Assembly (NCBI GenBank): GCA_005773635.1
Contig: SXHN01000069.1
Location: 1 to 34,010, forward strand
Length of the DNA stretch: 34,010 nt
Source: Actinomycetota bacterium
GTDB taxonomy: Bacteria; Actinomycetota; Acidimicrobiia; IMCC26256; PALSA-610
Direction of reading: 5' to 3'
The notes under the pieces were generated by a model. That model did no database searches. It was not told the origin of the DNA and was given only the letters and a program-made list of their open reading frames with translations. The position numbers were made by a program, and so were the translations under genes. This document shows, piece by piece, positions 15,246-23,761 of this stretch. Every line of letters starts with the position of its first letter. Position 1 is the stretch's first letter.

Positions 15246-16229
15246 CTACACGGCTTGCGCGAGCGCGGCACGAATGCGGCCGACAATCGCTTCAGCCGGG
15301 TCGCGGCTCGAGAATCCTGCCGCGAATCGGTGACCACCTCCAGCGTTGCATTGCGCGATCGCACACACGTCGACAGATCCGAGGCTGCGCAAACTGACTC
15401 GAAACGTGCCGTCGACGTCTTGTTTGAGCACCGCGCTCACTTCAGCTTCACGCGTCCGACGCACCACATCGATCAGGCCTTCGACTTCTTCCATGGTCAC
15501 GCCGAATTCGTCAAGGTCCTTCTGCAACACGACTGTGCAGACAAAGCGTTCGTCGACAAACAGTTCCGCGCGTTGTACGACTGTCGCCATGAGCTGCAAA
15601 TACGCGAACCGATGCTCTTCGAACAATGTGCGTGAAAGATCGGGAATCGGCACATCGAAGCGGGCCAATTCCGCGGCTAGCTCGAACACCTCGGGCGTGG
15701 TACTCGAGTATTGGAAGCGACCAGTGTCGCACACCAAAGCTGCATAAAGGCATACGGCCGCGTCTCGATTAAGCGCAAGGCCTAGTTCGGCGATGAGATC
15801 ACGCACCACGACACCACTCGCCGCGGCGTTCGGGTCGATGACATTGATTGTGCCGTACCGCTCGTTGCTCAGGTGATGGTCCACGACGATGAGTTCGCCT
15901 GCGGCAATCGCGGGCGCGCCGAGGTCGCCGAGTCGGCCGAGCGAGCCACAATCGAACGTGATCATCACTTCCGGTGCTTTCGGGAATTCAGCCGGTGGGA
16001 TGATCAGGTCGAGACCGATGAGCTCCCGATAGTGCGGAGCAATGACAAAAGGTTCAGAAAACGAACAGACCGAGCGAATGCCCGCGGCCTGCAACACATG
16101 GTGGAGCCCCAGCATCGAGCCCAGCGCGTCGCCGTCGGGGGTGACGTGGCACGCCAACGCGACCTCCGTCGCTGCTCGTATTGCGCGCGCCGCGGATTGC
16201 AGTGCGACACGGTAACTAGCTTCGGTCAC
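15246..16229 (-). CDS. nrnA: DHH/DHHA1 phosphoesterase, NrnA-like oligoribonuclease / pAp phosphatase
   Basis: NrnA proteins degrade nanoRNA and dephosphorylate 3'-phosphoadenosine 5'-phosphate (pAp). The 327-residue protein has HVTPDGDALGS (28-38) and FDCGS. The DHH triad is in VVDHHLSNERYG (117-119), and the DHHA1 substrate glycines are in GGGHRFAAGF near residue 300. It starts at GTG, whose GTGA overlaps the rbfA stop, indicating translational coupling. The same neighbour order is known from Mycobacterium (Rv2838c-Rv2837c). The pAp activity would link to the sulfate genes in this window only if CysC/PAPS is used; that is inference. Confidence 0.92.
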   Translation of the reverse strand: MTEASYRVALQSAARAIRAATEVALACHVTPDGDALGSMLGLHHVLQAAGIRSVCSFSEPFVIAPHYRELIGLDLIIPPAEFPKAPEVMITFDCGSLGRLGDLGAPAIAAGELIVVDHHLSNERYGTINVIDPNAAASGVVVRDLIAELGLALNRDAAVCLYAALVCDTGRFQYSSTTPEVFELAAELARFDVPIPDLSRTLFEEHRFAYLQLMATVVQRAELFVDERFVCTVVLQKDLDEFGVTMEEVEGLIDVVRRTREAEVSAVLKQDVDGTFRVSLRSLGSVDVCAIAQCNAGGGHRFAAGFSSRDPAEAIVGRIRAALAQAV

Positions 16230-16585
16230 TCGTCGTCGAGGGTGTCGTGGCGACGCCCGCCCTCGGCAAGAATTTGTTCAATTCGGTTGCCCGCTTCAAT
16301 CGAAGGATCCGCAACGAATACCAGCTTCGGCACCTGGCGCACCCGCATGCCATTACCCAGCACGCTGCGCAGATGAGGAGCCGACGAGTCGAGTGCTCGC
16401 TGGGCGTCGGGAGAATTCATCGATGAATAAAACACCGTCGCCGAAGAAAGGTCGTTCAACACGTTGACCCCAGTAATCGTCACCATTTCAAGGCGAGGGT
16501 CCGACATGCGTTCAAGTTCATTGGCCACGACTTCGTGCACCACCTCGTTGAGGCGAGCAGTGCGTGGATATCGCTTACCGGGCAT
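16226..16585 (-). CDS. rbfA: 30S ribosome-binding factor
   Basis: RbfA assists late 30S maturation by binding near helix 1 of 16S rRNA. The 119-residue protein has RTARLNEVVHEVVANELERM, DPRLEMVTITGVNVLNDLS and LRSVLGNGMRVRQVPKLVFV, all characteristic. Length is normal. It is the first gene of the - strand block that runs to the M16 protease. In most bacteria it directly follows infB; here a 4.4-kb + strand island separates the two, so it must use a promoter in the 221-bp divergent gap (16586-16806). I could not assign -10/-35 elements there with confidence. Confidence 0.95.
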   Translation of the reverse strand: MPGKRYPRTARLNEVVHEVVANELERMSDPRLEMVTITGVNVLNDLSSATVFYSSMNSPDAQRALDSSAPHLRSVLGNGMRVRQVPKLVFVADPSIEAGNRIEQILAEGGRRHDTLDDE

Positions 16586-16806
16586 CGGACCAGACTACCG
16601 GCGGAGGTCGCATCAACCCCGAGCAGTAACCGATGTACAGCTTGCGCGAGGCGACCGGAGGAGCCCAAGGGCAGGAATGAGCGAATTGAGTCCGAAGAGA
16701 GCTCGCAGCGTCGGGCGAACAAAGGCGCAACATACAAGCAATCTGTTGCAAATTGGACGCCTACGGTGTCGTTAGGGGTATGAGCAGACACATGGGAGCT
16801 AACACC

Positions 16807-17289
16807 ATGCAACGAGCGCCACAATGGGACGAACCGTTGCTATCGCAACTTCGTAATTTGTACGAGCCGTTACGGCGCTTCGCAGCCATCGTTGGCCGCG
16901 TCGACGTCGAACCGGACGACCTCGTGCAAGAGGCGTTCACTCGATTCTTGAGCGGTGATCGATCGGCGGTGATCGATATCGGCGCCTACCTGCGTCGATC
17001 CATCGTGAACCTCGCAACGAACGAACGGCGTCGCAACCGTCGGGCCGAGGCCGCGCATATCCGGCTCGGAGCCGTCGACGGCGTCGACGACAACTACCCA
17101 TCAGCACTTTCAGACCTATTGGCGATCGACGCCCGGGACCGAGGCTTGTTGTACATGGTCGACGTCGAGGGATTCCCAACTCAAGACGCCGCACAAGCGT
17201 GCGGCATGTCTGGACCGGCGGCGCGTATGGCGCTGTCACGCGCCCGCAAAGCACTTCGGGGCTCGATTGAAATGGAGCAAGGACGATGA
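16807..17289 (+). CDS. ECF-like RNA polymerase sigma factor
   Basis: This is a small sigma-70-family protein of 160 residues. Region 2 is seen in LRRFAAIVG and DDLVQEAFTRFLSG (37-50) with AYLRRSIVNLATNERRRNRR (60-79). Region 4 HTH is in LLYMVDVEGFPTQDAAQACG and SGPAARMALSRARKALRG (135-152). I chose ATG at 16807 because GGGAG sits 8 nt upstream; in-frame ATGs at 16780 and 16792 and a TTG at 16753 are less well placed. The stop overlaps the next gene's ATG (ATGA), the usual coupling of a sigma factor to its regulator. Region 2 is divergent and I cannot assign an ECF group. Confidence 0.85.
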   Translation: MQRAPQWDEPLLSQLRNLYEPLRRFAAIVGRVDVEPDDLVQEAFTRFLSGDRSAVIDIGAYLRRSIVNLATNERRRNRRAEAAHIRLGAVDGVDDNYPSALSDLLAIDARDRGLLYMVDVEGFPTQDAAQACGMSGPAARMALSRARKALRGSIEMEQGR

Positions 17290-19109
17290 CCGAACCCAAC
17301 GAACTTTGGAACCAACTCGCACAACGCGGCACCACTCGGGGCGCCGATTCGGTAGTACACGCCGCCGCGCTCGCGGCCGCGCAACCCCTCTCTTCACACA
17401 TCGGAGCAACGTTGAACGATCACGAAGTCCCCTTAATCGAAATGACGCCGAACGCAACGACACGCAAGTCCCGTAGTCGGCGCGGCTTCGGTGCAATGGG
17501 CCTTGCCGCGTTGCTCGGGGTTGGCGGGTTCGCAACGCTGTCAGTGCAAGGCAGCGGCGGTGGTGCGGATTCACCGAACGAAGCCGTCGAGCAACTCGCG
17601 AATGCCATCAACAATGAAGACCTGCTGGCGGCCGTCGACATCATGGCCCCCAAGGAAGTGCGCAGTCTGCACAAGTCAGTCGACCAGGCTCAACGACAAG
17701 CTGCAGAAACCGAACTCGTGCAATCTGCGAGCAAACCGTTCGCTGGACTCGATCTCGACGTAAAAAACCTCAGCACAGATGTAGAGACGTTGGCTGACGG
17801 CTATGCGAAGGTGACACTCAGCGGAACGATCAACGCGCAGACCAACTCGGCGGACTTCGGTCGGATGCTGCGCAACGCAACTCGCGCCGACGAGACAACC
17901 GGAGACTTTGATCTTGCCGACCTTTCGGTCAACGAGGCTGACCCGTTCGTGATGGTGGTGCGCGACGGCGATGGCTGGTACATCAGCCCGGCGTACACCG
18001 GCCTCGAATACGCCCGCGTCGCCTACGACCTCCCAGCTGCCGAATTCGGTTCTGCCGACGGCGCGAATCTTGGTGCCAATACACCAGAAGATGCTGCAAA
18101 TGAAATGTTGCGAGCGATCTCGGCGAAGGACTGGACCAAGGTGGCAAGCCTGGTGCCGCCGAGTGAATTCCCGCTCTACGACTACCGCGCCGCATTTACA
18201 CAGTTGATGAACGACAATCTGGGCAAGGATTCCTTCAACATTGCGAAGCTCACGTCCACTGCAAAGACCGACGGCAACGAAGCGACGGTGTCGCTAGATG
18301 CGAGCGGCACCACCGACAGCGGAGCTTCGTGGTCGATCACCAAGAATTGTTTCGACATCTCGGATGATTCAGCTGTTGGTCATATGGAGTGCATTGCTGC
18401 AACTGATCTCGTCCCGTTCATAGGAATGCGGAACTTCGGACTTGCACCCCGCGACACCGACGACATCGCAACGTTGCAAGCTAGCGAACGTGACGGTCGT
18501 TGGTTTGTGAGCCCGATGGGCACAGTGCTCGACGGCGTCGACAGTTTGGTGAACGCATTCGACCGCAACACGCTCGCACAGCTCCTGAACCAACCCCAGG
18601 AAATGACGTCATCGGGCTCAATAACTCTCGGCACGAGCGTCGAGGTTCCTCGCGCTTCGGGCGCTCGTCGATACACGTTGACGCTCACCAATGCCGAGAC
18701 AGTGGTGTCGCGCCTAGCGCCCGGCGTCAACGGTCACGTCAACGGTTACGTCGAGTTCTTTGGACCGAAGGGCGAGCAAATCGAAAGCAGCTACGACTTC
18801 GAATCCGAGTCATACGAAGAGACCTTCGAACTCGACGCAGGCGTCGAATATTCGGTCATCGTCAGAAACTTCTCCGACCAACAGTTGTCTGTGACGATTT
18901 GGCGCAGGGCCAATGCCCCAGCGCAGTCCCAACAACAGGTTGAACAACCCGACGGCTCCAACTGCGTCACAACCGGCGGTCGGGCCGTCTGCAGTGATTC
19001 GAGCGTCGGTGTAGCGGAAGTTGAAAAGACCGAGGCAACCAGCAACCCGTCTACAACCAGCCCGACGATGCTGCTCCCACCAACCACAGTCGTGGCTGCG
19101 AAGCCTTGA
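17286..19109 (+). CDS. Membrane-anchored protein with two NTF2-like repeats, candidate anti-sigma/sensor
   Basis: The 607-residue protein has a cytoplasmic N-terminus (1-66), one membrane segment (about 67-87, GFGAMGLAALLGVGGFATLS) and a large outside part. Two related domains follow. One runs about 95-235 (SPNEAVEQLANAINNEDLLA ... RDGDGWYISP) and the other about 266-412 (TPEDAANEMLRAISAKDWTK ... ERDGRWFVSP). They look like tandem NTF2-like/lumazine-binding-type folds. A beta-rich region (445-540) and a Ser/Thr/Pro tail with two cysteines (560, 569) end it. It overlaps the sigma gene by ATGA, so a role in holding or releasing that sigma factor is likely, but no ZAS zinc motif is present in the N-terminus. 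The function is inference. Confidence 0.8.
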   Translation: MTEPNELWNQLAQRGTTRGADSVVHAAALAAAQPLSSHIGATLNDHEVPLIEMTPNATTRKSRSRRGFGAMGLAALLGVGGFATLSVQGSGGGADSPNEAVEQLANAINNEDLLAAVDIMAPKEVRSLHKSVDQAQRQAAETELVQSASKPFAGLDLDVKNLSTDVETLADGYAKVTLSGTINAQTNSADFGRMLRNATRADETTGDFDLADLSVNEADPFVMVVRDGDGWYISPAYTGLEYARVAYDLPAAEFGSADGANLGANTPEDAANEMLRAISAKDWTKVASLVPPSEFPLYDYRAAFTQLMNDNLGKDSFNIAKLTSTAKTDGNEATVSLDASGTTDSGASWSITKNCFDISDDSAVGHMECIAATDLVPFIGMRNFGLAPRDTDDIATLQASERDGRWFVSPMGTVLDGVDSLVNAFDRNTLAQLLNQPQEMTSSGSITLGTSVEVPRASGARRYTLTLTNAETVVSRLAPGVNGHVNGYVEFFGPKGEQIESSYDFESESYEETFELDAGVEYSVIVRNFSDQQLSVTIWRRANAPAQSQQQVEQPDGSNCVTTGGRAVCSDSSVGVAEVEKTEATSNPSTTSPTMLLPPTTVVAAKP

Positions 19110-19567
19110 CCACCAGGCGTGCTCGGGCATCGGATGCATGCTTTGTCCTCGGGGGTGTGGCGTTACTCAGTGCAGCATTTCTGCACTGGGTGCGCCGCGG
19201 CCCCGGCGCCGCGTTACGCGGCCATGAGCTCATCGATGCTGCAGCCCGCGTAGCGAATCGGGTCGATGGGGGTGGCTGGCAGGTCACTGCGCTCACCATC
19301 GTCTGGTATCTCATCCCTGCGTCGGGAGCCTTGGCGTGGGTCGTTGTTGGCTTTGGCGACCCGAAAGGGCGCAGCGGGAAAGCCGTGGCCGGCATCGCCA
19401 CACTGGCAACATCAATCAGCGTCGCCGGACTCGGGACTCAACTCCAGTGGAGTCGGCTCGGCCCAGGTACCGTCGCAGCGAGCCTCGGCGCGACACTCCT
19501 GATCTTTGGCGCAGCGATACCCCACCCGCGGTCCCACACAAGCCGCGCAAACCGCCAGATCCAGTGA
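19106..19567 (+). CDS. Small polytopic membrane protein of the sigma operon
   Basis: The 153-residue protein starts at TTG, overlapping the previous stop (TTGA), so it is probably coupled to the two genes before it. Four hydrophobic segments are visible (about 12-28, 60-82, 92-110, 121-138). I do not recognise the family. The last 13 residues (PRSHTSRANRQIQ) and the stop codon are supplied by the first unit of the 73-bp repeat array, so the original 3' end was probably replaced when the repeat arrived. A short membrane protein with a sigma/sensor pair could help sensing or stability, but nothing in the sequence shows this directly. Confidence 0.65.
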   Translation: MTTRRARASDACFVLGGVALLSAAFLHWVRRGPGAALRGHELIDAAARVANRVDGGGWQVTALTIVWYLIPASGALAWVVVGFGDPKGRSGKAVAGIATLATSISVAGLGTQLQWSRLGPGTVAASLGATLLIFGAAIPHPRSHTSRANRQIQ

Positions 19568-19645
19568 CCACCCCCGGTCCCGGCGCCCGACTCCCCTGCC
19601 GCGGTCCCACACAAGCCGCGCAAACCGCCAGATCGTGGGACCACC
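19526..19645. repeat. 73-bp-period repeat array A (two units)
   Basis: Units start with CCGCGGTC at 19526 and 19599, exactly 73 bp apart. They share the core CGCGCAAACCGCCAGATC. In unit 2, GGTCCCAC (19603-19610) and GTGGGACC (19635-19642) are perfect inverted arms, so each unit can fold into a hairpin. The core recurs, also at 73-bp spacing, at 20750-20954 beyond the next gene. Confidence 0.85.
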
Positions 19646-19774
19646 CGCGCGCCGAGTCGCGACGCATCTTGCGTACGCCGCGCACCGCCGCGCCGAATGT
19701 CGCAACGACGTGCGAGGATCACAACTGAGACTTCCCCACTCTGACACCCACTGAATCAGATAAGGAAGCTTGCC

Positions 19775-20725
19775 ATGTCTATTCGAGATCGCAACCGCAC
19801 GACCACAGCCAAACCCGACCGCCGACATGTGGCACTGGCGAAACTCGTCGGCCCCGAACGGCGACTGTTTACCTATGCGGAAGCGCTCTGCGCCGGATTC
19901 GATCCCGAAGCAATCCGGCGTCGCCGGGCCCACAACGTATGGCTGGAAATTTCTCCTTACGTGATGTGTGCAGCGCCAATCGGAAGGCTCAGTCCACTTG
20001 AGGAACTGTTGGCCCACACTCTGTCGGGCGATGCGCACGCCTGTCGAGGGAGCACACTTGCGCTGTTCGATCTGTGCAGTTTTCCGTCGTTGCCCAACAT
20101 CGTGGTCACACGATCACGGCGCAACCTCAACCGCAAAAGCCTGCACTCGTCACGGTCATTGCCTCCGATCGATCTCACGACCGAGCGACACGTCTCAACC
20201 ACCACAGTTGCGCGTGCCCTCATCGACGTTGCGACGCCTCTATCGGACCAGAGGGTCCAGCAATTGATCGCCAAAGCAATTGTGCGGCGCAAAGTTCGCG
20301 GCGAAGAGCTGTCCGAGCGGGCCGAAGCGCTGCGGGCCGGTCGAGCGGGAGCCGCACGGGTCGCACGCGTCGTGGCCGCGCTCGACCCCGATTTGAGTAA
20401 CTCCTACAACGAATGGGAGGTGCTCGTCACCGACTTTGCCGCGAAACACGGGCTTCCCACACCGCAACGCAACTACCGAGTCGAGCTGGAACACGGCCCG
20501 CGGTACGTCGACGTCGCATGGCCCGAAGTGAAATGCGGTATCGAATACGATGGCTATTGGGAACATCTCACCAGCATGGACCGTTTTGTGGATGATCGCT
20601 TCCGAGACATCGACTTCAAGAACTCGGGTTGGCGCATCGATCATTGCAACAAACAGATGCTCGACGGCGCTGCAGCTCGGATCTTCGAACCAACGCTGAG
20701 GGCATTCGAGCGACGCGTGGCCTGA
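19775..20725 (+). CDS. DUF559/Vsr-like endonuclease-fold protein with AbiEi-like N-terminus
   Basis: The 316-residue protein has AAGGAAG 7-8 nt before ATG. The N-terminal region (about 15-70, RRLFTYAEALCAGFDPEAI then WLEISPYV) resembles the winged-helix domain of AbiEi-type antitoxin-like proteins. The C-terminal part (about 210-312) matches the DUF559 PD-(D/E)XK pattern: SYNEWEVL, GLPTPQRNYRVE, RYVDVAWPEVKCGIEYDG (Asp246, Glu257) and GWRIDH. Such genes are common and multicopy in Actinobacteria, often annotated as AbiEi antitoxin-domain or DUF559 proteins. No toxin partner lies beside it. It is bracketed by 73-bp repeat arrays on both sides and is probably an accessory gene; nuclease activity is inferred from fold residues only. 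Confidence 0.8.
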   Translation: MSIRDRNRTTTAKPDRRHVALAKLVGPERRLFTYAEALCAGFDPEAIRRRRAHNVWLEISPYVMCAAPIGRLSPLEELLAHTLSGDAHACRGSTLALFDLCSFPSLPNIVVTRSRRNLNRKSLHSSRSLPPIDLTTERHVSTTTVARALIDVATPLSDQRVQQLIAKAIVRRKVRGEELSERAEALRAGRAGAARVARVVAALDPDLSNSYNEWEVLVTDFAAKHGLPTPQRNYRVELEHGPRYVDVAWPEVKCGIEYDGYWEHLTSMDRFVDDRFRDIDFKNSGWRIDHCNKQMLDGAAARIFEPTLRAFERRVA

Positions 20726-20735
20726 AGCTAGGCCG

Positions 20736-20954
20736 CACCGTCAGCCACGCCGCGGTCACACAGACACCGCGCAAACCGCCAGATCGTGGGACCACCCGAG
20801 TCCCGGCGCACCGTCACCCACGCCGCGGTCACACAGACACCGCGCAAACCGCCAGATCGTGGGACCACCCGAGTCCCGGCGCACCGTCACCCACGCCGCG
20901 GTCACACAGAAACCGCGCAAACCGCCAGATCCTGGGACCACGCTCGGTCCCGAG
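20736..20954. repeat. 73-bp-period repeat array B (three units)
   Basis: Three head-to-tail units begin at 20736, 20809 and 20882 with CACCGTCA(G/C)CC. Units 1 and 2 differ at one base; unit 3 differs at a few more. Each has the core CGCGCAAACCGCCAGATC and near-inverted arms GGTCACAC / GTGGGACC. The same family forms array A upstream, in the same orientation. The array fills most of the 255-bp gap between the DUF559 gene and infB and holds no gene. Confidence 0.9.
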
Positions 20955-20980
20955 GCCCTGCGCACCAGGCGCGCCCGGTG

Positions 20981-23761
20981 CTAGGTGCGGACGATCTCGC
21001 GTTCTTCGTAGGTTTCGATCATGTCTCCCGGTTTCAAGTCCTGGTAGTTGTCGAGGCCGACACCGCATTCGAAACCGTCTCGCACTTCGCGGGCATCTTC
21101 TTTGAAACGTTTCAGCGAGGAAATCGAACCGTTCCAGATAACCGTGCCTTCACGCAGGAACCGCACCTTCGAACCGCGAGTGATGACACCGGTTTGCACA
21201 TAGCAACCTGCGATGGCACCAATCCGTGGGACTCGGAACACTTCGCGCACTTCAGCTTCGCCAGTAACAATTTCTTCGAACTCGGGCTTGAGCATCCCAA
21301 CGAGAGCCTTGTTGACGTCTTCAAGCACGCCGTAGATCACCTCGTAGAGACGCATGTCGACGCCTTCACGCTCGGCGGTTTCACGCGCTTTGCGATCCGG
21401 GCGCACATTGAACCCAATGACCGTTGCGTTCGAAACAGCAGCGAGGGTGATATCGCTTTCGGTGATACCGCCCACACCCCGATGCACAAACGAAAGTCGC
21501 ACTTCGTCGTGAGTCTGATCGACCTTGCGCAACGCTTCGGTGACCGCTTCAAGCGAACCTTGCACATCGGCTTTCAAGATCAAGTTCAGCGTCGCAACCT
21601 CACCACGCTGCACCATTGCGAAAATGTCTTCGAGTCGAGCGCCACCACCAAGCACCTCGCGGTGCACAAGCCCAGCCGTACGACGACGATGCTTACGGGC
21701 TTCGGCAACGGTACGAGCAACACGGTCCGAGGGCGCGGCGCGAAGCTCATCGCCAGCAAGCGGAACGTCGTCGAGTCCGAGCACCTCGACGGGCTTCGAC
21801 GGGCCCGCTTCGGTAACCGACTTGCCGTGCTCATCAAACATCGCACGAACCCGACCCCACGCGGGGCCAGCAACAATCGTGTCACCAACGCGCAGCGTTC
21901 CTTCGAATACGAGTGCCGTCGCGACTGGCCCACGGCCGGGATCGAGGTGTGATTCGAGCACTGCAGCCCGCGCAGGTTTGTGAGGGTTGGCGACGAGTTC
22001 CTCGACGAGGTCAGTGAAGTCGGCCACGTTGAGTAGGGCTTCAAGCAACTCATCAATGCCGGCACCCGTCTTGGCCGCAACATTGATCACGGTGACATCG
22101 CCACCGTATTCTTCGGGCACGAGTTCGTACTCAGTGAGTTGGGCGCGCACGCGGGTGGGATCGGCATCTTCGCGGTCGGTTTTGGTAACCGCCACAACAA
22201 TCGGAACCTCAGCCGCCTTGGCGTGATGAATAGCTTCAATCGTTTGCGGCATGATGCCGTCGTCGGCAGCAGCAACCAACACCGCGATATCGGTGACCTG
22301 CGCGCCGCGTCGCCGCATTGCAGTAAACGCCTCGTGACCCGGGGTATCGATAAACGTAATAAGGCGATCGGTGCGATGCACGTGGTACGCACCACTGTGC
22401 TGGGTAAGGCCGCCGGCTTCGCCCGCAGCGACATCGGCTTGGCGGATCGCGTCGAGCAACGTGGTTTTACCGTGGTCGACGTGGCCCATCACTGTGATGA
22501 TTGGTGGGCGAGCCTCAAGCTGCGTTTCGTCATCATCGTCATCATCAGCCGTGAGCATCGCGATGAGCTCAAGTTCTTCTTCGCTACCAGGCTCGACAAC
22601 GAGTACCTGGGCACCGAGCGACTCCGCGATCAGTTCGATCATTTCGTCAGCCAATGACGCCGTCGAAGTGATCATTTCGCCGGCATCGAACAACAACTTC
22701 ACGAGGTCGGCAGGTCGACGGTTCAGTTTGGGCGCGTAGTCCTGGATTGTGATGCCGCGCGGCACAACAATTTCGCCTTCGGGAACTGGAGTGTTCTCCG
22801 GCGTCAGGGACAAGCTCTGTTGGAGCTCGCTCTCATCGAAATCGCGACGCCGCTTCTTGCGACGCGATGGGCGTCGTTGACTCCCACCAGGGCCTCCACG
22901 GCCACCGCCACCAGGACCGCCACCACCGCCAGGACGACCGCCGCCACCTTGGAAACCACCGCCACCAGGACCGCCACCACCGCCAGGACGACCGCCGCCA
23001 CCTTGGAAACCACCGCCACCGCCACCGCCACCAGGACCGCCACCCGTTCGCTGACCGGGCGCGCTACCGGTGCGGGCGCTGCCCGCGCCGCCAGGACCAC
23101 CTGGGCGCTGACCTGGGCCGCGCGGCGGCGGAGGAACTCGGCGACCGCCGAGGCCGGGCGGCGGCGGAATTACTTTGCCGCTTTCGGATCGCAATTGCGC
23201 CGCAGATCGAGACGAAGCCGCAGCGGGCGTCTCGGGAATTGCGGTGCTCGGGGCAGGCGCAGGTGCGCCAGCAGACGTTGCGTCAGCTTCGACGCGTGCG
23301 GCCGGACGCTCGGGCGTTGGCTGCGGTGTCGCAGTCGGCGGGTGCGCGGGCACACCACCAGTCGAACGCACCACGCCCGCTCCTGCGGAACGAACCGATC
23401 GAACCGGTGCGGCTGGTTTCGCCGCGGGTGCGGCTACATCTGTTGTGGCGGGTCGCGACGTGACAGCCGGGGTTTCAGGGGTGGCAGTGTCAGAAGCAGC
23501 AGGCGCAACGGGCGCCGCAGCGGCGGGCGCTGCCACCGGCGCAGGCGTCGGTTCGGCTGCGACCACGGGTTCGGGAACGGGCTCTTTTTTCAGTCCCTTC
23601 GACGTCGCGAGGCGACGTACGCGGTCCGCGGATGGGTCATCGATGCTGGATGATGGACTCTTGACGCCGAGCTTCAGCTCCGCCGAAAGTTCCAATACCA
23701 CCTGGTTTTCCACGCCGAGCTCACGTGCAAGCTCATAGACCCGGATCTTCTTAACTGCCAA
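20981..23761 (-). CDS. infB: Translation initiation factor IF-2
   Basis: IF-2 is the GTPase that brings fMet-tRNA to the 30S subunit and promotes 50S joining. The 926-residue protein has an IF2_N segment ([15 protein letters not shown]), an Ala/Pro region (60-190) and a Gly-rich linker (about 240-293). The GTPase follows with GHVDHGKTT (426-434) and DTPGHEAFT (472-480). The G4 motif is TKTD (526-529), where NKxD is the norm. C-terminal domains follow ([27 protein letters not shown]). The start is TTG at 23761, giving [11 protein letters not shown] as in other actinobacterial IF-2. It ends the rimP-nusA-ylxR-infB block and converges with the DUF559 gene. Confidence 0.96.
22908..23015 (-). repeat. 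Two identical 54-bp tandem units within infB
   Basis: 22908-22961 and 22962-23015 are identical, each encoding 18 residues of the glycine-rich linker ([18 protein letters not shown] type). Being in-frame and identical, it is probably a slippage-prone region that varies in length between strains. Confidence 0.9.

Follow-up and report, generated by a model that had tools for sequence, protein, structure and literature searches.

The three-gene module at 16745-19567 of the window (the whole stretch of 34,010 nucleotides that was analysed) is very probably an autoregulated signalling unit of the stress-response type, in which an ECF sigma factor would be sequestered by the N-terminus of a membrane-bound anti-sigma factor. 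Within this reading, we infer the physical binding, its inhibitory (rather than activating) effect, the signal and the release. A preliminary description of this DNA had suggested that it may encode an ECF control system not described before, whose NTF2-like sensor is duplicated. This idea gains support from comparisons across genomes, as the N-terminus of the membrane protein tracks the sigma factor and its ectodomain does not.

Gene layout and conservation

The module consists of three ORFs on the + strand, ending at 17289, 19109 and 19567. The 4-nt overlaps that had been described between them are both present: ATGA (17286-17289) joins ORF1 to ORF2 and TTGA (19106-19109) joins ORF2 to ORF3. 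The trio is flanked on the minus strand by rbfA (16226-16585) on one side and infB (20981-23761) on the other. This setting, on the opposite strand inside the infB-rbfA region, had also been highlighted; it is real in the window, but only one other member of the genus has the module between these genes. We have dropped it as meaningful, as orthologous modules sit in other surroundings.

Other features were observed around the trio. A dispersed repeat of ~73 nt (core GCGCAAACCGCCAGATC), tandem in places and with 25 matches genome-wide, occurs at 19522-19647 and 20734-20966. Its copies encode the last residues of the four-span protein and flank a + strand gene (19775-20725) whose N-terminus weakly resembles AbiEi_4 (E 0.05). 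In the other genus member, infB directly follows the four-span gene, without a counterpart of the 19775-20725 gene, which thus looks either inserted in the window or lost in that relative. Additionally, a DHH phosphoesterase-like ORF (15246-16229) lies between truB and rbfA in the window; the other genus member has almost no gap between truB and rbfA (L021 4412-4431), and no match to the ORF was found there.

The 607-aa product of ORF2 was matched in 15 of 61 genomes searched, its own included; a single-protein query of the genome contigs returned no match, while an alignment query did. Eight other genomes, with dual-NTF2 proteins ~35-51% identical to that of the window, keep the order sigma, dual-NTF2, four-span, which argues that the gene order is not due to chance. 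Within the same family, the order is maintained where the contig allows, usually with overlapping starts. A profile of the sigma factor separates three tiers: nine orthologs at E<1e-70, eight well-assessable second-tier members at E 1e-47 to 1e-31, and general ECFs at ~1e-14 and worse. All nine orthologs adjoin a dual-NTF2 gene, and the eight assessable ones also have a four-span gene. The concern that the sigma gene might occur without the other two in most relatives is thus not borne out. The trio holds as a linked unit, but the more general unit is the sigma factor plus an N-terminal motif (see below), for which the dual-NTF2 sensor is one of many. Similarly, the four-span gene is conserved in the module, but it belongs with the dual-NTF2 ectodomain and not with the sigma factor.

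The sigma factor and its predicted promoter

ORF1 matches Sigma70_r2 and Sigma70_r4_2 above the Pfam gathering cut-offs. By the features tested, its product is an ECF (group IV) sigma-70 factor: regions 2 and 4 are present, regions 1 and 3 are missing, and the protein is short (169-178 aa). Identity to the orthologs is 48-69%. The best NCBIfam match, the SigE-family model TIGR02983, scored 42.1 bits, below its curated cut-off of 141.55. The sigma group may already carry a published ECF group number.

A predicted autoregulated ECF promoter, GTTGCA-N17-GTCGTT, occupies 16745-16773 on the + strand (-35 at 16745-16750 and -10 at 16768-16773). The longest ORF begins at TTG 16753, the start implied by the preliminary range, and this codon falls between the -35 and -10 of the conserved promoter. 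For this reason the start has been moved to ATG 16780, located six bases past the -10, an arrangement that is the same in the other genus member. Judging from the sequence, the sigma factor most likely starts at this leaderless ATG (16780-17289, 169 aa) and not at TTG 16753.

All nine orthologous modules carry the pattern GTYRCA-N17-GTC before the sigma start, each with 17-nt spacing, as do 25 of 55 members of the sigma group, where 0.5 would be expected. Although spacings of 16-18 nt were allowed in the search, all group matches have 17. As the element is shared by the nine modules, the natural reading is that the sigma factor autoregulates its own operon through it. A search for a wider regulon with this pattern in the same genome produced 7 matches, against 3 for the control, and no convincing additional target.

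The N-terminal motif of the membrane protein

ORF2 (17286-19109, + strand) encodes a single-span membrane protein of 607 aa, a putative anti-sigma factor with a duplicated NTF2-like ectodomain. Its transmembrane span, placed by hydropathy at residues 67-89 (17484-17552; helix 64-83 in the model), is preceded by the basic flank RKSRSRR. Residues 1-66 contain no Cys and therefore no HxxxCxxC, and no zinc anti-sigma family was matched in Pfam, in agreement with the earlier remark that no zinc motif is visible. Searches of Pfam and NCBIfam with the whole protein matched no known anti-sigma family, and RsgI_N was not matched in Pfam at E<=1. Residues 1-35 (17286-17390, including LWNQLAQRGTTRGADSVVHAA) carry a cytoplasmic motif that we propose as a sigma-binding domain. 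Its consensus, LxxLAxRGxPxGAxxVLxxA, was not found described in the literature searched. The AlphaFold2 model of the single chain predicts helices at residues 4-13 and 21-31, with pLDDT of ~30-50.

With a profile built from the sigma factor only, 56 group members were recovered, spread over 45 of the 395 class genomes searched; among 396 genomes sampled across the phylum, only one besides that of the window yielded the group, and it belongs to the same class. Two members at contig ends and one broken gene were left out, leaving 53 that could be assessed. Every one of these overlaps or abuts a gene for a single-span membrane protein with an N-terminal version of the motif, in which the arginine is conserved in 49/53 partners and the two glycines in 46/53 and 47/53, respectively. 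In none of the loci examined are the sigma and partner genes in phase. The motif is weak in a minority of members (e.g., L172 and L178). In all eight second-tier members, the product of the overlapping next gene opens with a motif similar to the one in the window protein and continues into an unrelated ectodomain. A broken group sigma, its frame lost in region 4, was also seen without a recognisable partner (L103 993-1400, G001:C37).

The association holds when the search is made from the motif. A first profile, trained on 17 proteins and not retrained, detected 30 of the 36 other partners at E<=1e-5, as against 0 of 1800 shuffled N-termini, and a 43-column profile gave six matches outside its training set, five of them with a group sigma directly upstream. 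In a reverse search of 375 genomes, 49 of 53 motif matches lay directly downstream of a group sigma, among them all of those with E under 1e-6. Of the four exceptions, the strongest (G162/L121) was rejected, as the gene reads as FtsH. With the motif profile, the N-terminus of the L042 protein and those of four proteins partnered with other ECFs scored E>=0.03, and the motif is absent from nine loci with dual-NTF2 proteins unpaired with this sigma group. Across the class, motif and sigma factor are associated one to one; the motif thus follows the sigma factor and not the ectodomain, and sigma binding would be the simplest reason for it. The 607-aa protein also presents the tested features of the membrane-anchored anti-sigma class: it is encoded in tandem with an ECF gene and has one transmembrane span, a basic cytoplasmic flank and a sigma-specific N-terminus. 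In the best reading of these comparisons, the motif would be an undescribed anti-sigma domain and the ectodomain a plug-in sensor.

The ectodomain and the four-span protein

As described earlier, the ORF2 product has one hydrophobic span (residues 67-89) and two related extracytoplasmic domains with similar ends, DGDGWYISP and DGRWFVSP. An hhalign comparison of the two domains (99.0%, E 7.7e-18) identifies them as duplicates. Their NTF2-like nature is agreed by the fold of the predicted model, but not by sequence searches, as Pfam, NCBIfam and PDB named no known NTF2 family and the PDB search scored only a designed binding protein (E 0.24). The AlphaFold2 model (mean pLDDT 67) contains two short N-terminal helices of low confidence, a transmembrane helix, two alpha/beta domains and a beta-sandwich. 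Its best Foldseek match is TcpC (3ub1, E 7.8e-5), which spans both NTF2-like domains. Domain 1 comprises residues ~95-246 (17568-18023) and domain 2 residues ~265-424 (18078-18557); with VIA, residues 94-239 matched scytalone dehydratase (Z 8.4) and residues 259-416 matched YchJ (Z 9.2) and the NTF2 domain of RsgI9 (Z 8.9). On this model, both domains would be placed in the NTF2-like superfamily, by fold-level matches of moderate Z. The pair is followed by a third ectodomain, absent from the preliminary description, which is a PPC/collagen-binding-like beta-sandwich (residues ~436-540, 18591-18905; VIA Z 10.7 to 5sv5, Foldseek prob 1.00). The matches of this sandwich to clostridial toxin domains reflect a shared fold only, and we give them no functional meaning.

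ORF3 (19106-19567) starts at a TTG that overlaps the ORF2 stop. This start is supported by the alignment with an ortholog that has the same first residue, there encoded by ATG, and the four spans initially attributed to the product are confirmed as four hydrophobic spans. In several other dual-NTF2 loci (L029, L030, L032, L042, L044, L045 and L046), a four-span gene lies upstream, mostly adjacent. A profile of the four-span genes found beside dual-NTF2 genes without a group sigma matches that of the window (hhalign 97.8%, E 8.9e-13), so the four-span/dual-NTF2 pair is more widespread than its link with this sigma group. On the best reading of these comparisons, the four-span protein had been paired with the dual-NTF2 ectodomain earlier, and the family of the window appears to have joined this pair to the sigma-plus-motif unit.

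Other arrangements of the ectodomain were also observed. In L042 (4922-7839), a different ECF overlaps a dual-NTF2 gene without the RGxPxG motif, with the four-span gene upstream, apparently an independent sigma/dual-NTF2 pairing. In other actinobacteria (L045 5716-7185 and L044 5077-8295), dual-NTF2 proteins beside four-span genes have zinc-ribbon N-termini replacing the motif.

Sensor swapping across the sigma group

The ectodomains of the 53 partners form 27 sequence clusters, which are sequence families and not folds, so that several may share a fold. Among them there are matches to Kelch, Reg_prop and BNR beta-propellers, to BD-FAE (esterase-like) and to META, while others have no family. 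A tree of the sigma factors places the nine dual-NTF2 modules together (support 94, not starred), inside a starred set of 11 that includes two Kelch-type members. In this tree, the member with the esterase-like ectodomain (L196) falls among relatives with propellers, within a starred set, which indicates an ectodomain swap. We lean towards a broader view of these data, in which an ECF group restricted to the acidimicrobial class would use an undescribed anti-sigma domain of ~30 residues as a universal socket for unrelated sensors (27 clusters so far), the sensor of the window's family being a pre-existing two-gene device made of the four-span protein and the double NTF2-like pocket.

Proposed mechanism and alternatives

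In our model, when the system is at rest, the 607-aa protein would bind the sigma factor through its short cytoplasmic N-terminus, predicted to form two helices around the RGxPRGA turn, and hold it at the membrane. Outside, the duplicated NTF2-like pair and the PPC-like sandwich, probably acting with the four-span protein, would bind a ligand or a cell-wall component. This binding, or its loss, would then lead to a change in, or proteolysis of, the membrane protein, freeing the sigma factor to transcribe its own operon from the GTYRCA-N17-GTC promoter. Regulated proteolysis is possible given the two M50 (RseP-type) protease loci of the genome, although proteases of this kind are nearly universal.

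The same observations may be explained in other ways. The membrane protein could be a positive partner whose N-terminus holds or recruits the sigma factor at the envelope and is needed for its activity, since the comparative data give a sigma-specific cytoplasmic motif and not the sign of its effect. We consider this unlikely, given that most single-span proteins whose translation is coupled to that of an ECF sigma act as anti-sigma factors. Membrane-anchored anti-sigma factors have been described as the most widespread ECF regulators (PMC8103513). It is quite improbable that the dual-NTF2 and four-span proteins are outputs of a sigma-controlled envelope operon (e.g., parts of an assembly for the cell wall or for transport, comparable to the NTF2 scaffolds TcpC/VirB8) and not regulators. 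The closest fold match of the NTF2 pair is indeed TcpC, from a conjugation machine, and elsewhere the four-span/dual-NTF2 pair is present at loci that lack a group sigma; however, an output function would leave unexplained why the motif is restricted to this sigma group and persists when the ectodomain changes.

Finally, the sigma factor could be regulated elsewhere, the motif being conserved through shared ancestry or through the constraint that translational coupling imposes on the overlap. All partner genes overlap or abut the sigma gene, which would constrain coding near the junction. Nevertheless, overlap lengths and frames differ between loci (-4, -8, -14, +1 and others) and the motif lies beyond the overlap, yet R, G and G persist. 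This last explanation is hardly credible to us, and sequestration by the N-terminus is the reading that we retain.

Relation to known systems

The proposed anti-sigma unit resembles CnrH-CnrY (ASDII) and BldN-RsbN (ASDIII) in its overlapping gene pair, its short zinc-free cytoplasmic N-terminus before one transmembrane span and its apparently autoregulated promoter. CnrY and RsbN act through short helices that wrap around sigma2 and sigma4. By contrast with them, the motif of the window protein is different, without a Pfam match, and its ectodomain is freely swapped. A precedent is the anti-sigma factor RsgI9, whose ectodomain is NTF2-like (PMC12203970), from the RsgI9/SigI system of Clostridium thermocellum, in which an anti-sigma family also carries variable sensing ectodomains. 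However, SigI lies outside this ECF group, the window protein has neither an RsgI_N match nor a visible RsgI autocleavage domain, and RsgI9 has a single NTF2 domain beside an S1C domain instead of two.

The promoter elements are similar to those of ECF41 (-35 TGTCACA, -10 CGTC, spacer 16 +/- 1; PMC3426412), which also has an NTF2-like (SnoaL) regulatory domain. In ECF41, however, this domain is cytoplasmic and fused to the sigma C-terminus, whereas the sigma factor of the window lacks any extension and a separate protein carries the NTF2-like domains, on the extracytoplasmic side. Bitopic proteins such as TcpC (pCW3 conjugation) and those like VirB8 share one transmembrane span followed by two NTF2-like domains; unlike TcpC, the window protein adds a sigma-linked N-terminus and a PPC-like domain, and no conjugation genes were recognised near the trio. 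There is also a weak NCBIfam match (residues 67-120, E 0.0044, below the family cut-off) to the Rv0361-family membrane proteins (NF051431), for which we know of no sigma link.

Significance

If this reading is correct, the motif would serve as a sequence tag, through which the anti-sigma partner, the promoter and the sensor could be located together for an entire ECF group that is uncharacterised, in bacteria for which genetic tools are scarce or lacking. A peptide of ~30 residues could then suffice for sigma control, and the swapping of unrelated ectodomains behind one short sigma-binding motif would represent a natural modular transmembrane switch, useful for biosensor design. Additionally, these results provide a concrete hypothesis for the widespread, unannotated four-span/dual-NTF2 gene pair of actinobacteria.
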